From assembly GCF_900683735.1 (NCBI RefSeq), contig NZ_LR215979.1, positions 1 to 64,000 on the forward strand: DNA of 64,000 nucleotides, read 5' to 3'. The notes beneath the pieces were generated by a model. It saw only the letters and a list, made by a program, of their open reading frames with translations. It was not told where the DNA came from and searched no databases. The stretch is from Fusobacterium ulcerans ATCC 49185 (GTDB taxonomy: Bacteria; Fusobacteriota; Fusobacteriia; Fusobacteriales; Fusobacteriaceae). The translations under genes were made by a program, and so were the position numbers. This document shows, in pieces, positions 44,026 to 48,088 of the stretch; the stretch's first letter is position 1; every line of letters begins with the position of its first letter.

Positions 44026-44187
44026 TAATAATAACAGTATTTAATAATAACAAGAAAGATAAAAGTAAAATATACACACACAAGGGAGAGGGATTATTCA
44101 CAAAAAAATGGGAGCAAGTATTGTAATCTACACAAAAAGCCTGATTTTTCTTCTGGAATAAAATTTAATAGAGAGCATATAAAGAAT

Positions 44188-44215
44188 CTCAGATGAATGC
44201 GTCTGAGTTTTTTTA
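44188..44215 (+). terminator. Orphan intrinsic terminator
   Basis: CTCAGA (44188-44193) pairs with TCTGAG (44202-44207), followed by seven T. The previous gene already ended at 43940, so some transcript, perhaps a small RNA from 43940-44187, seems to end here. No ORF with a ribosome-binding site was found in that interval. Confidence 0.75.
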
Positions 44216-44396
44216 TTTAAAAATTAAAATGACGGCAAAAAATCAAGAGGTAATTCTCAAAAATCATTCTGCACCCCTCATTTTATTTTATATTTTTTTG
44301 GTAAAAAATATATTGAGTTAAAAGTGAGAAAAAAATGATTGAAAAATTTAGAAAGGAAGAAAAAAAATTAAAAAAACAAAAAAATAAAAATTAGGA

Positions 44397-44619
44397 GTTC
44401 TTGTTTATGTATAAATACGAACACTTTCAGAATTTGTAACTATCTAAAACAATCTTTACTCCTATCAATTATATATATCATAAAAAAACAAAATAATCAA
44501 TTTTTATTTTTTTAAAGTTTGATGTTTTTAAAAAAATGCAAGTTAAATTTTGTATTTAAGATGATTTAAAAAAAAATAAAAAAATTTTAAAAAGTTCGTA
44601 TTTATACATAAACAGGAAC
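44397..44619. repeat. Segment bounded by 26-bp inverted repeats (candidate invertible promoter)
   Basis: The left arm (44397-44422) and right arm (44594-44619) are inverted copies identical at 25 of 26 positions, starting GTTC and containing TTTAT-GT-ATAAA near the middle. They enclose 171 very AT-rich bases. No direct target-site duplication flanks them. Upstream of a surface autotransporter, this is the layout of a phase-variable invertible promoter; a small mobile remnant or a pair of operator sites are alternatives. No invertase gene lies in the window. Confidence 0.7.
44472..44500 (-). promoter_or_regulatory. Promoter-like site inside the inverted-repeat segment, facing away from the autotransporter
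   Basis: Minus strand TTGATT (44500-44495), 17-nt spacer, TATATA (44477-44472). Inversion of the segment would place its start near 44551, reading toward the gene at 44789. No equally good promoter reads rightward in 44397-44788; TTGAAA-N18-TATTTT (44636-44665) is the best. Confidence 0.5.
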
Positions 44620-44788
44620 CTTTTTTTGATTTTGATTGAAAAGTTAAATTTTTAAGAAATATTTTGACAACTATTTTGATAAAAAAATTGAGAAAAATAG
44701 AGGTAAATCTTTAAAAAAAGTACAGTTTAGGTGTGAAGAAAGAACCTGTATAAAAATATTAAAAAACATTTTTGGGGAGGAAAACAAT

Positions 44789-47700
44789 ATGATAGATAAG
44801 ATTATAAAAGCAGTAAAAAGGAGCAACAAAAGAAGAGGAAGAAATATAACAATAGGAGCAGTGATTGGATTTTTACTTTCATGTACAGTGGTAATGGGAG
44901 CAGGAGAAATAGGACTAGAAATAGGCGGCTCTGAAAATAGAATAGAATTCAAAAAAGATGGAACAGTATTTATTCCTAAAAAGGAAGATGGCTCAGATAA
45001 AGATCCATATCTTGACAACAGCTGGGAAGAAGGTGCAAAAACTTATACAAACAACACAATAATATCAGGATATAACGGATCTGGTAAAAGTTATGGAGTG
45101 AAATTAAGTGGAGATTTAGGTAAATTCAAATTTATAAATAATGCTTTAATAACAGGAACAGGAAATAATGAAGCTTATGGAATATATCTTGATTCCTCCT
45201 CTAAAGCAGGAGATATAATAAATACTGGAATATTGAATAGTAAAGTTATTGGTCCTTCCAAGAGTTATGGAGTATATCTTAGTTCTTCATCTGAAGCAGA
45301 AAATATAATAAATACTGGAGTAGTAACAGTTCGTTCTTTTGATACAACTTATGGAATATGTCTTGTTTCATCTAAAGCAGAAGGCATAACAAATAGTGGA
45401 ATAATAAGTACTGCTAATGATGGTTATTCTAGTGCTTACGGAATAGAGATTAGAGATTCATCAGTAGTAGAATACATAGAAAATACTGGCTTGATATATA
45501 GTGCAGAATCTGGAATGTATCTTGCTTCTTCAAGCGTAGGGGATATAATAAATACAGGAGTTATTTATGGTGATGATTCTCGAGGAATCGGTCAATATAG
45601 TGGGAGTACTATATCTCATATAACAAATACAGGAGTTATTTATGGAAAATCATATGTTGTAGATAATGTTAGTGGAACAATAACTAATTTTAATAACTAT
45701 GGAATACTTGCGTCAGGTAATAGTTCTGGTAGTGTGGTTGATGGTTTAACAATAGTGGCTCATAATGATTCTGGTGGTGAAGATAAAATAAAAAACTATG
45801 GATTAGCCTTTGCAGATACAGGTTCTGGTGTCTATAAGAATTATGATAATAGTTCCAGTAATTTTGGAGTAATATATTCAGATGAAAATATTGCTGGAGT
45901 TCAGTATGATATCATAAATATTAGAGCAGATGTAGATGGTAGTACTAATGAAATAAAAGATTGGAAGAGCCTGGGTATAAAAGATGGAAAGCTGTATTCT
46001 GATGCTGGTGATACTACTGGTGGTGAAATAAGTAGTTTTTCTTCAAATAAGCAATATATTTTAAATGGAATAGAAGATACTCTTAAAGTTATTGGAGCAA
46101 ATGAGGGGAATAGATTAAATAATAGTATAATCAATGCCTATAAGACAGCAGTAAAATTTGATGCTGCTGCTGAGGGAAAACTTACTCTATCAGGAACAAC
46201 AGTAAATGGTGGAGCAGATGGAAGTGATGTAGTAGTAGGAGGCAGTAATTCAGATACTTTAATATTGGAAGATGCAAGTATAATCAATGGAAATATAAAC
46301 ATGGGAGATGAGGTGGATAATCTTTCTCTAAATTCTGGAGTAATAGTTAATGGAACTGTAAAAATGGGAGATGGAAATGATGTTCTTAATATTGTTAGTG
46401 GGGGAAGAATAAATGGAACTCTTGATGGAGGAGATGGAATTGATGATATTCTTAATTTTGCTTCGCCAGCAGCAAGAGATGCAGCTAATGGTGGAATAAA
46501 TATTCATCATAACATATCAGGATTTGAAAAAATGAATATAAATACTAATGTAACCCTATTTGAAAAAACTATTAAAGATGATGGAACATTAGAAGATTTA
46601 GCCATAACAGGAGCAGAAAATATAACAATAGGAGAAAATGGAGTCCTTACTTTAAGAATAGATTCAGTAAATAGTAATAAGCATGCTCTGTCAACAGGAA
46701 ACACTGGAACAATAAAATCAGAAAATGGAGGAAAGCTTCTTCTGGCTCTGAATGGAGCTGGAAACAAAAGTAAAATAAGTTTTGGAAATCTTAAATTAGA
46801 CAGTAGCTTAGTGACAGGATATGAAGGAGAATATCAAGAAGATGTAACTTTTGGGACAACATCAGTACTTCATTCTGTGAAAAGAACAGGAGGAACTAAT
46901 GAAGTAGAGGTTGCAGCTAAAAAGGATCTTCCTCCAAAAGCAAGTGGTTCTGATGAGCTGTTTTATGAAAAATTGAATAAAATATATCAAAGTATTCTTT
47001 CAGTAGATGAATTAGGAAATTTCAATGTAGACAATGATGAAAAATTATCAACATTCTTAGGATATCTAAATGATATCTATGCAGGAAATCCATATTCATA
47101 TTCTTCTGAATTATCAAGAAAATCTGCTGGAATGTTCAGAGATATAGTAACAGAAAATATTTTTAAACCAGAAACAAATAAATGGATGATTTATGGTGGG
47201 CTGACTCATGTAGATGGAGGAACAAAAGATACTTACTATGGGAAAGGATATTACACATATGACATAGGAAGTTCTGATATAGATGCAGATACAAAAATTA
47301 CTGGAGCATATATGTTAGGAGAATATGGAGTATCTGATACACTTACTTCTGGAGTAGTGATAGGAGGGAATAAACTTAAATTTGACTTGTCCAATGGCTC
47401 AAAAGTAGATGGAAGCGCATTATATCTAGGAGCTTATGCAAAGAAATATATAGGAAATCTAAAAGTAACAGCAGGAGCAGGATTCCAATATGGAGATTAT
47501 GATGCAGACAGACTGGCAGTAAACAATGCAGCTTCAAGTAAGGCAGAACCAGTGATTAAATATTCTGATAATTACAATGATATGACATATGATATCTACC
47601 TAAATGGAAGATATTCACATAATATTGGAGATAACCTATTCTTAGAACCATATGGAACATTGTCATATACATATATAGATCAAGATGGTGCAGATGAAGG

Positions 47701-48088
47701 AAATCAAACTCTAGCAATAGAAACAGATTCAAAATCATTTGACTATACAGTAGGAAAAGTAGGAGTAGACCTTAAAAAAGTTATACCTCATGAAAAAGGA
47801 AAAAGTACACTTTCAGCAGGAGTAAGCTACACAAGAATACTTGATGGAGCAGATGAGGAGTTTATCACAGGAAGATTTAAAGGTGGAAGCAACTTTGATA
47901 TATTGGTTGCTCATAAAAATGAACATAGTATAGGACTAAATGCAAAATATGCTCTGGAACTTGAAAATGGAATTCTATTTGATGTAAAAGGGACTTATGC
48001 AGTAGAAAGAGATTCACATAACGGAGCAGGAAAAAACAAGGCTAAAGGGGAATGGATAGTAGGAGCAGGATTAGGATATAAGTTCTAA
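44789..48088 (+). CDS. Type Va autotransporter (surface protein)
   Basis: A 1,099-residue protein. An extended basic signal (KAVKRSNKRRGRN then a hydrophobic core ending VVMGA) is followed by a passenger domain and, from about residue 798, a C-terminal beta-barrel (NKWMIYGGLTHVDGGTKD, ending GLGYKF with the terminal Phe). Residues 145-290 hold about six beta-helix turns with the core N-T/S-G-I/V (NTGILNSK, NTGVVTVR, NSGIISTA, NTGLIYSA, NTGVIYGD, NTGVIYGK). Around 500-555 come VDNLSLNSGVIVNGT and GDGNDVLN turns that resemble RTX-like motifs. GGGGAGG precedes the ATG. Adhesion or other surface role; ligand unknown. Confidence 0.92.
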   Translation: MIDKIIKAVKRSNKRRGRNITIGAVIGFLLSCTVVMGAGEIGLEIGGSENRIEFKKDGTVFIPKKEDGSDKDPYLDNSWEEGAKTYTNNTIISGYNGSGKSYGVKLSGDLGKFKFINNALITGTGNNEAYGIYLDSSSKAGDIINTGILNSKVIGPSKSYGVYLSSSSEAENIINTGVVTVRSFDTTYGICLVSSKAEGITNSGIISTANDGYSSAYGIEIRDSSVVEYIENTGLIYSAESGMYLASSSVGDIINTGVIYGDDSRGIGQYSGSTISHITNTGVIYGKSYVVDNVSGTITNFNNYGILASGNSSGSVVDGLTIVAHNDSGGEDKIKNYGLAFADTGSGVYKNYDNSSSNFGVIYSDENIAGVQYDIINIRADVDGSTNEIKDWKSLGIKDGKLYSDAGDTTGGEISSFSSNKQYILNGIEDTLKVIGANEGNRLNNSIINAYKTAVKFDAAAEGKLTLSGTTVNGGADGSDVVVGGSNSDTLILEDASIINGNINMGDEVDNLSLNSGVIVNGTVKMGDGNDVLNIVSGGRINGTLDGGDGIDDILNFASPAARDAANGGINIHHNISGFEKMNINTNVTLFEKTIKDDGTLEDLAITGAENITIGENGVLTLRIDSVNSNKHALSTGNTGTIKSENGGKLLLALNGAGNKSKISFGNLKLDSSLVTGYEGEYQEDVTFGTTSVLHSVKRTGGTNEVEVAAKKDLPPKASGSDELFYEKLNKIYQSILSVDELGNFNVDNDEKLSTFLGYLNDIYAGNPYSYSSELSRKSAGMFRDIVTENIFKPETNKWMIYGGLTHVDGGTKDTYYGKGYYTYDIGSSDIDADTKITGAYMLGEYGVSDTLTSGVVIGGNKLKFDLSNGSKVDGSALYLGAYAKKYIGNLKVTAGAGFQYGDYDADRLAVNNAASSKAEPVIKYSDNYNDMTYDIYLNGRYSHNIGDNLFLEPYGTLSYTYIDQDGADEGNQTLAIETDSKSFDYTVGKVGVDLKKVIPHEKGKSTLSAGVSYTRILDGADEEFITGRFKGGSNFDILVAHKNEHSIGLNAKYALELENGILFDVKGTYAVERDSHNGAGKNKAKGEWIVGAGLGYKF

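Follow-up and report, generated by a model that had tools for sequence, protein, structure and literature searches.

Organization of the locus

The first 64,000 nucleotides of contig NZ_LR215979.1 of Fusobacterium ulcerans ATCC 49185 (hereafter the window) contain, at 44397-44619, a short intergenic element bounded by two 26-bp inverted repeats and lying upstream of a gene for a surface protein. The distal (left) repeat, GTTCTTGTTT-ATGTAT-AAATACGAAC, occupies 44397-44422 on the plus strand, and the proximal (right) repeat, GTTCCTGTTT-ATGTAT-AAATACGAAC, occupies 44594-44619 on the minus strand. The two arms are complementary at 25 of 26 positions and enclose an interior of 171 bp (44423-44593) that is 86% A+T and has a flipped homologue in the related element G008_2099442, described below. 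Both repeats contain the 6-bp spacer ATGTAT (44407-44412, plus strand, in the distal site; 44604-44609, minus strand and thus inverted, in the proximal site), which covariation between partner sites marks as the putative crossover region. The interior carries a predicted promoter on the minus strand, with a -35 element TTGATT at 44495-44500 and a -10 element TATATA at 44472-44477 preceded by TGN (extended -10), both conserved in the alignment of the element's family. The downstream gene (44789-48088, plus strand) has a ribosome-binding site GGGGAGG at 44774-44780, starts with an ATG 169 bp past the right arm and encodes a type V autotransporter of 1099 aa with a PF03797 beta-domain at residues 822-1062 (E=9.5e-26). 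The initial annotation of this DNA had described two 26-bp repeats around 171 AT-rich bases ahead of a large surface protein; its coordinates proved exact, and the protein is this autotransporter.

When inverted repeats of 26 bp with at most one mismatch and a spacing of 100-300 bp are sought, the real window yields exactly one, and there is none in either of two surrogate sets (15 Markov sequences of 64 kb; 200 local, AT-rich sequences of 3 kb). Inverted repeats around a promoter-bearing short intergenic segment upstream of a gene are the layout of an inverton. It is highly probable (about 0.9) that 44397-44619 is a tyrosine-recombinase inverton that would turn the autotransporter at 44789 ON or OFF by flipping its promoter.

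A family of paired sites

The repeats belong to a family of sites composed of GTTCNNNTTT, a 6-bp spacer and AAANNNGAAC. Using the arms only, 61 Fusobacteriaceae genomes were searched, and exact sites occur in four of them: this genome (G000, 32 sites), F. varium Fv113-g1 (G010, 15) and two further Fusobacterium genomes (G008, 21; G009, 44). This arms-only search found no exact site in the other 57 genomes, and a scan of a wider collection of genome contigs, in which near relatives may be absent, returned two lone, chance-like matches in unrelated organisms. Compared with the whole 3.84-Mb genome, the window element matches two relatives over nearly its full length (94% and 79%) and many others in part.

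The 26-bp sites recur as pairs 141-233 bp apart. Over the four genomes 76 pairs were examined, 21 of them in this genome, whose network comprises at least 21 pairs. For five more strong sites, a variant partner whose spacer matches is found at a distance of 152-153 bp. Almost every pair immediately precedes a gene, and in one orientation. The genes downstream encode autotransporters of several families, MBOAT-type acyltransferases and OmpA-like proteins (the last two labels come from sequence inspection, not from Pfam), and further targets are operons that begin with HU-like genes (PF00216) and continue with FadA-like or autotransporter genes.

Sequence of the putative crossover region

Partner sites agree with each other in a narrow central region. 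In a set of 56 distinct pairs, the two partners have the same base at positions 11-16 of the site in 98-100% of cases (shuffling expectation 41-96%), position 15 being invariant and hence uninformative on covariation. At positions 5-10 of the outer arm the agreement is not above chance, and positions 20-22 of the inner arm are mildly correlated, probably through shared ancestry. When partners were picked by arm score alone, 75 of 81 pairs had identical inverted spacers, against a mean of 18.8 and a maximum of 31 in a shuffled control. Of the six pairs that failed, five involve spurious partners with a weak arm score of 10, which leaves 75 of 76 genuine pairs matched. A crossover sequence that is identical between partners, with arms free to differ, is what is expected of tyrosine-recombinase sites, and the matched 6-bp spacer between independently varying arms thus points to a crossover region of this type.

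The spacers fall into classes that include ATGTAT, ATCTAT, GTATAT, ATATAA, GTGTAT, AGGTAT and ATTTAA. The sole genuine mismatch is the G009 pair 1564473/1564624 (ATACAT vs ATCTAT). This pair (G009:C1:1564473/1564624, L096) is flanked by intact switches of both spacer classes and forms a natural negative control. Another unusual pair, in F. varium Fv113-g1 (G010:C1:1744702-1744868, L120), has the palindromic spacer ATATAT and could recombine in either alignment, and might thus both invert and delete.

Orientation of the promoter

The window promoter, TTGATT-N17-TATATA on the minus strand, points away from the autotransporter as assembled. All six elements of its family have kept it, one of them with TTGCTT as its -35 element. 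A general sigma-70 weight matrix leaves the window promoter ambiguous, since its -10 element ends in A; its conservation in the family and a stricter motif settle the ambiguity. Across the 76 elements, a sigma-70-like promoter is predicted on exactly one strand in 67 and on both strands in none, and in flanks of equal length the motif is found on 4 of 304 strands. The predicted promoters of the 67 scorable elements face away from the gene in 63 cases and toward it in 4. On the strength of this one-strand survey and of the conservation within the family, the call that the window copy is drawn OFF is supported, as is the minus-strand promoter that the initial annotation had predicted.

The four elements with a promoter toward the gene are G000_958543, G008_2099442, G008_165899 and G009_3056156, and all have one of two rare spacers, ATATAA (three of the four in that class) or GTATAT. 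Every one of the 54 promoter-scorable ATGTAT and ATCTAT elements is OFF (Fisher p about 0.0003, from few and related events), which offers a lead that spacer class may be linked to ON/OFF state.

Flipped interiors, putative scars and a chimeric locus

When the interiors of related elements were aligned with the side facing the gene held constant, 17 comparisons were flipped and 194 were in the same orientation. The clearest case is G008_2099442, whose interior is reversed relative to G008_2279891 (87% identical over 169 bp, with no better forward match) between flanks that run in the same direction up to the sites (upstream 82%, downstream 88%). The interior of this element also runs in reverse when set against G000_108402, G000_218373, G009_1145044 and the window element. 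In this genome, six paralogues of G000_958543 have the interior in the opposite orientation. For G000_3783353 the same holds of three, but at only 72-75% identity and beside a weaker forward match, which makes it a probable flipped locus. Both orientations between the same flanks occur at sibling loci, by comparison of paralogues or orthologues, and as an evolutionary event inversion at these loci is established by such alignments.

Some elements may also have been lost. At two solo sites of G009, 595782 (L089) and 2105540 (L100), two outer half-sites are joined, and their flanks are 88-95% identical to those of the intact element at 3064001; a third, 1840157 (L098), is similar and slightly off the expected join. 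These solo sites look like precise excision scars that have left an autotransporter without its switch promoter. Excision could have been carried out by the recombinase or could reflect slippage between quasi-palindromic sites.

The window locus itself is chimeric. Positions 44082-44627, which hold the switch and its upstream flank, are 95% identical to G000:C1:108394-108940 on the reverse strand, a copy that precedes an HU-like gene and an autotransporter of a different family. The similarity ends 8 bp beyond the proximal site. Exchange between two switches of the same class would explain this arrangement, which could also have arisen by ordinary homologous recombination or deletion.

A candidate recombinase

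No recombinase adjoins the window switch, and this genome has 11 matches to PF00589. The strongest candidate is a 198-aa tyrosine recombinase encoded at G000:C1:992076-992669, with PF00589 at residues 12-182. Relatives of 80-84% identity are found in G008, G009 and G010, so that among the 61 genomes this type occurs at >=80% exactly in the four that bear sites; homologues in the other 57 reach at most 58%. FimB and FimE are tyrosine recombinases of ~200 aa. The 198-aa protein is likewise short and consists of a single PF00589 domain with intact catalytic residues: R44, H146, R149, H172 and Y181, together with a lysine-rich hairpin, are invariant in seven homologues. Among solved structures, XerC-like and XerA recombinases come closest to the short recombinase. 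Its 213-aa paralogue, encoded at 1678016-1678654, has counterparts of 95-98% identity in G008 and G010, whereas G009 lacks a separate orthologue. As G009 is the genome richest in sites and keeps only the 198-aa type intact, the 198-aa protein is the best candidate and is likely the enzyme acting on the sites. The neighbors of the two genes are HU-like, FadA-like or other surface genes. Their position elsewhere in the genome agrees with the earlier expectation that the recombinase must be encoded away from the window.

Further short recombinases were noticed in the relatives. The G009 switch at 1145044 has a decayed copy of the short tyrosine recombinase ~4 kb away, at G009:C1:1140660-1141286. 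Two more short recombinases are carried by a plasmid of F. varium Fv113-g1 (AP017969.1 56685-63201, L159), one of them adjoining an autotransporter gene.

With their 26-bp length and variable central dinucleotide, the repeats look like hix sites. A serine invertase was nevertheless rejected: the matched region spans 6 bp rather than 2, as suits a tyrosine recombinase, and the only serine recombinase (PF00239) of this genome is of the large type (478 aa).

Proposed mechanism and alternative explanations

In the proposed mechanism, a short recombinase (the 198-aa protein being the likeliest and its 213-aa paralogue at 1678016 another possibility) would bind the two quasi-palindromic 26-bp sites, each as a pair of 10-bp arms, and strand exchange across the identical ATGTAT spacers would invert the interior. 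As assembled, the promoter would read away from the gene and the switch would be OFF. Inversion would place the -10 element at 44539-44544 and the mRNA start near 44551, with about 240 nt of leader before the ATG in the ON state. The invertible promoter put forward in the initial annotation is supported by paired sites, a matching crossover, flipped interiors in this genome and in a relative, and a recombinase encoded elsewhere. From these we infer reversible inversion in living cells, the identity of the acting recombinase and ON/OFF expression, and there are strong indications that the window locus is still phase-variable.

Several observations weigh against this interpretation. The window locus is known in its single assembled orientation, and the only counterpart with a flipped interior is a related locus of a different species, whose interior is 78.9% identical in reverse and whose upstream flank is collinear. 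Since the three flipped loci were recognized among paralogues or orthologues of 72-87% identity, inversion may be an old and infrequent event. Every promoter of the family is a prediction from sequence, and the strict motif was set after the elements had been seen, which makes the contrast with the flanks the meaningful part of the survey. Given the 63:4 bias toward OFF, a single state is all that most of the switches show. The recombinase was assigned by its co-occurrence with the sites, and homologues of 50-58% identity exist in genomes without the site.

Two readings would dispense with inversion altogether. The repeats might be an operator pair for a dimeric regulator, for example one that loops DNA between palindromic sites, and each 26-bp site is indeed quasi-palindromic, with fairly regular spacings (142, 151, 168-172, 186, 197-201 and 231 bp) upstream of related genes. 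This is very unlikely, as an operator pair does not predict matching between partners that is inverted and confined to the central 6 bp, nor flipped interiors between collinear flanks, nor scars in which half-sites are joined. The element might instead be a miniature inverted-repeat transposable element (MITE) or another dispersed mobile element with 26-bp terminal inverted repeats. Many copies per genome, and the ~94% identity between the window element and the 108402 copy, would suit such an origin, which is nonetheless extremely improbable: target-site duplications are at chance level (60 of 69 pairs have none, 61 expected), with rare exceptions the copies sit immediately ahead of surface-protein operons, in a single layout relative to the gene, and the interiors belong to several unrelated families that have only the sites and a single promoter in common. 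The initial annotation had kept a MITE-like remnant and an operator pair as alternatives, and spacer covariation together with the absence of target-site duplications leads us to reject both; the repeats form spaced pairs ahead of surface-protein operons and do not behave as a dispersed mobile element.

Two other readings accept inversion and differ in its timing or its enzyme. The switch may be a once-active inverton that is now locked, with past inversion and no useful rate in this strain. The 63 OFF elements among 67 that can be scored, the G009 pair with mismatched spacers and the three loci with scars or solo sites all favor such locking. Conversely, the intact recombinases keep all catalytic residues, promoters are kept on exactly one strand, and spacers still matched in 75 of 76 pairs require continued selection or recombination, which renders a locked state unlikely. 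Inversion may also be real and be carried out by another enzyme, such as a genus-wide 190-aa Xer-like protein, XerC/D-type proteins or phage integrases. The number of PF00589 proteins in the genome and the distance of any recombinase from the window switch leave room for this; however, relatives that lack the sites have the 190-aa protein and the larger integrases too, and the 198-aa type alone is shared at >=80% by the four site-bearing genomes, so that a different enzyme is likewise improbable.

Beyond the switch at 44397-44619, a broader and tentative proposal, for which the odds are rather poor, is that one trans-acting tyrosine recombinase runs at least 20 surface-protein switches per genome through shared arms. 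Spacer classes would recombine within their class only and differ in switching bias, and same-class exchange between loci would swap switches and genes. Such interlocus swapping is hinted at by the chimeric window locus.

Relation to known systems

Promoter inversion for a surface adhesin is likewise found in fimS, which is switched by FimB and FimE for the type 1 fimbriae of E. coli. fimS is one element, whereas here a genome-wide family of 26-bp quasi-palindromic sites has several spacer classes. In the ipuS/UpaE switch of uropathogenic E. coli CFT073, a promoter-bearing invertible element controls an autotransporter operon, as is proposed for the window (PMC6083910). There, too, several switches have tyrosine recombinases in common, which can be encoded far from some of them (PMC6083910). 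The window switch lacks an adjoining recombinase, unlike ipuS/UpaE. CFT073 has three switches, against at least 21 pairs in this genome (PMC6083910). In Clostridioides difficile, one tyrosine recombinase, RecV, acts in trans on several invertible segments, including those of a cell-wall protein gene and flagella (PMC5903667). The RecV system comprises seven switches with differing repeats, whereas the Fusobacterium sites have one arm sequence and the spacer defines classes (PMC5903667). Mpi of Bacteroides fragilis is one master recombinase for at least 13 invertible regions that serve surface structures (cited in PMC5903667). Mpi is a serine recombinase, whereas the 6-bp crossover and the genome inventory point here to a tyrosine recombinase.

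Invertons are thus a known kind of element, and this Fusobacterium network was not found in the literature searched, which holds no description of an invertible-promoter network in Fusobacterium, although a bulk listing in the catalogue of Jiang et al. (2019) is possible. The genome of F. varium Fv113-g1 encodes 44 autotransporters and 13 FadA proteins (PMC5720691), and the words inverted, promoter and recombinase are absent from the main text of that genome paper. If true, a shared DNA-inversion system would make most autotransporters and FadA adhesins of the F. varium group phase-variable. It would help to explain differences between isolates, would mean that a deposited genome or a single-culture transcriptome captures one state only, and would make the control of surface proteins testable through one recombinase gene. 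Covariation of matched spacers is, in addition, a general, read-free way of mapping a crossover region from genome sequence alone.

Composition of the switched operons

One or two HU-like genes (PF00216) are often first in a switched operon (L023, L025-L028, L031, L087, L136 and relatives). An HU-like DNA-bending protein made from such an operon could feed back on inversion. Near the FadA loci L025-L028, a ~276-aa protein with a Cys-containing start (KCQFCGKEYMKNP...) is repeated, and a divergent copy is found in L023; its recurrence suggests that FadA operons spread as larger cassettes.
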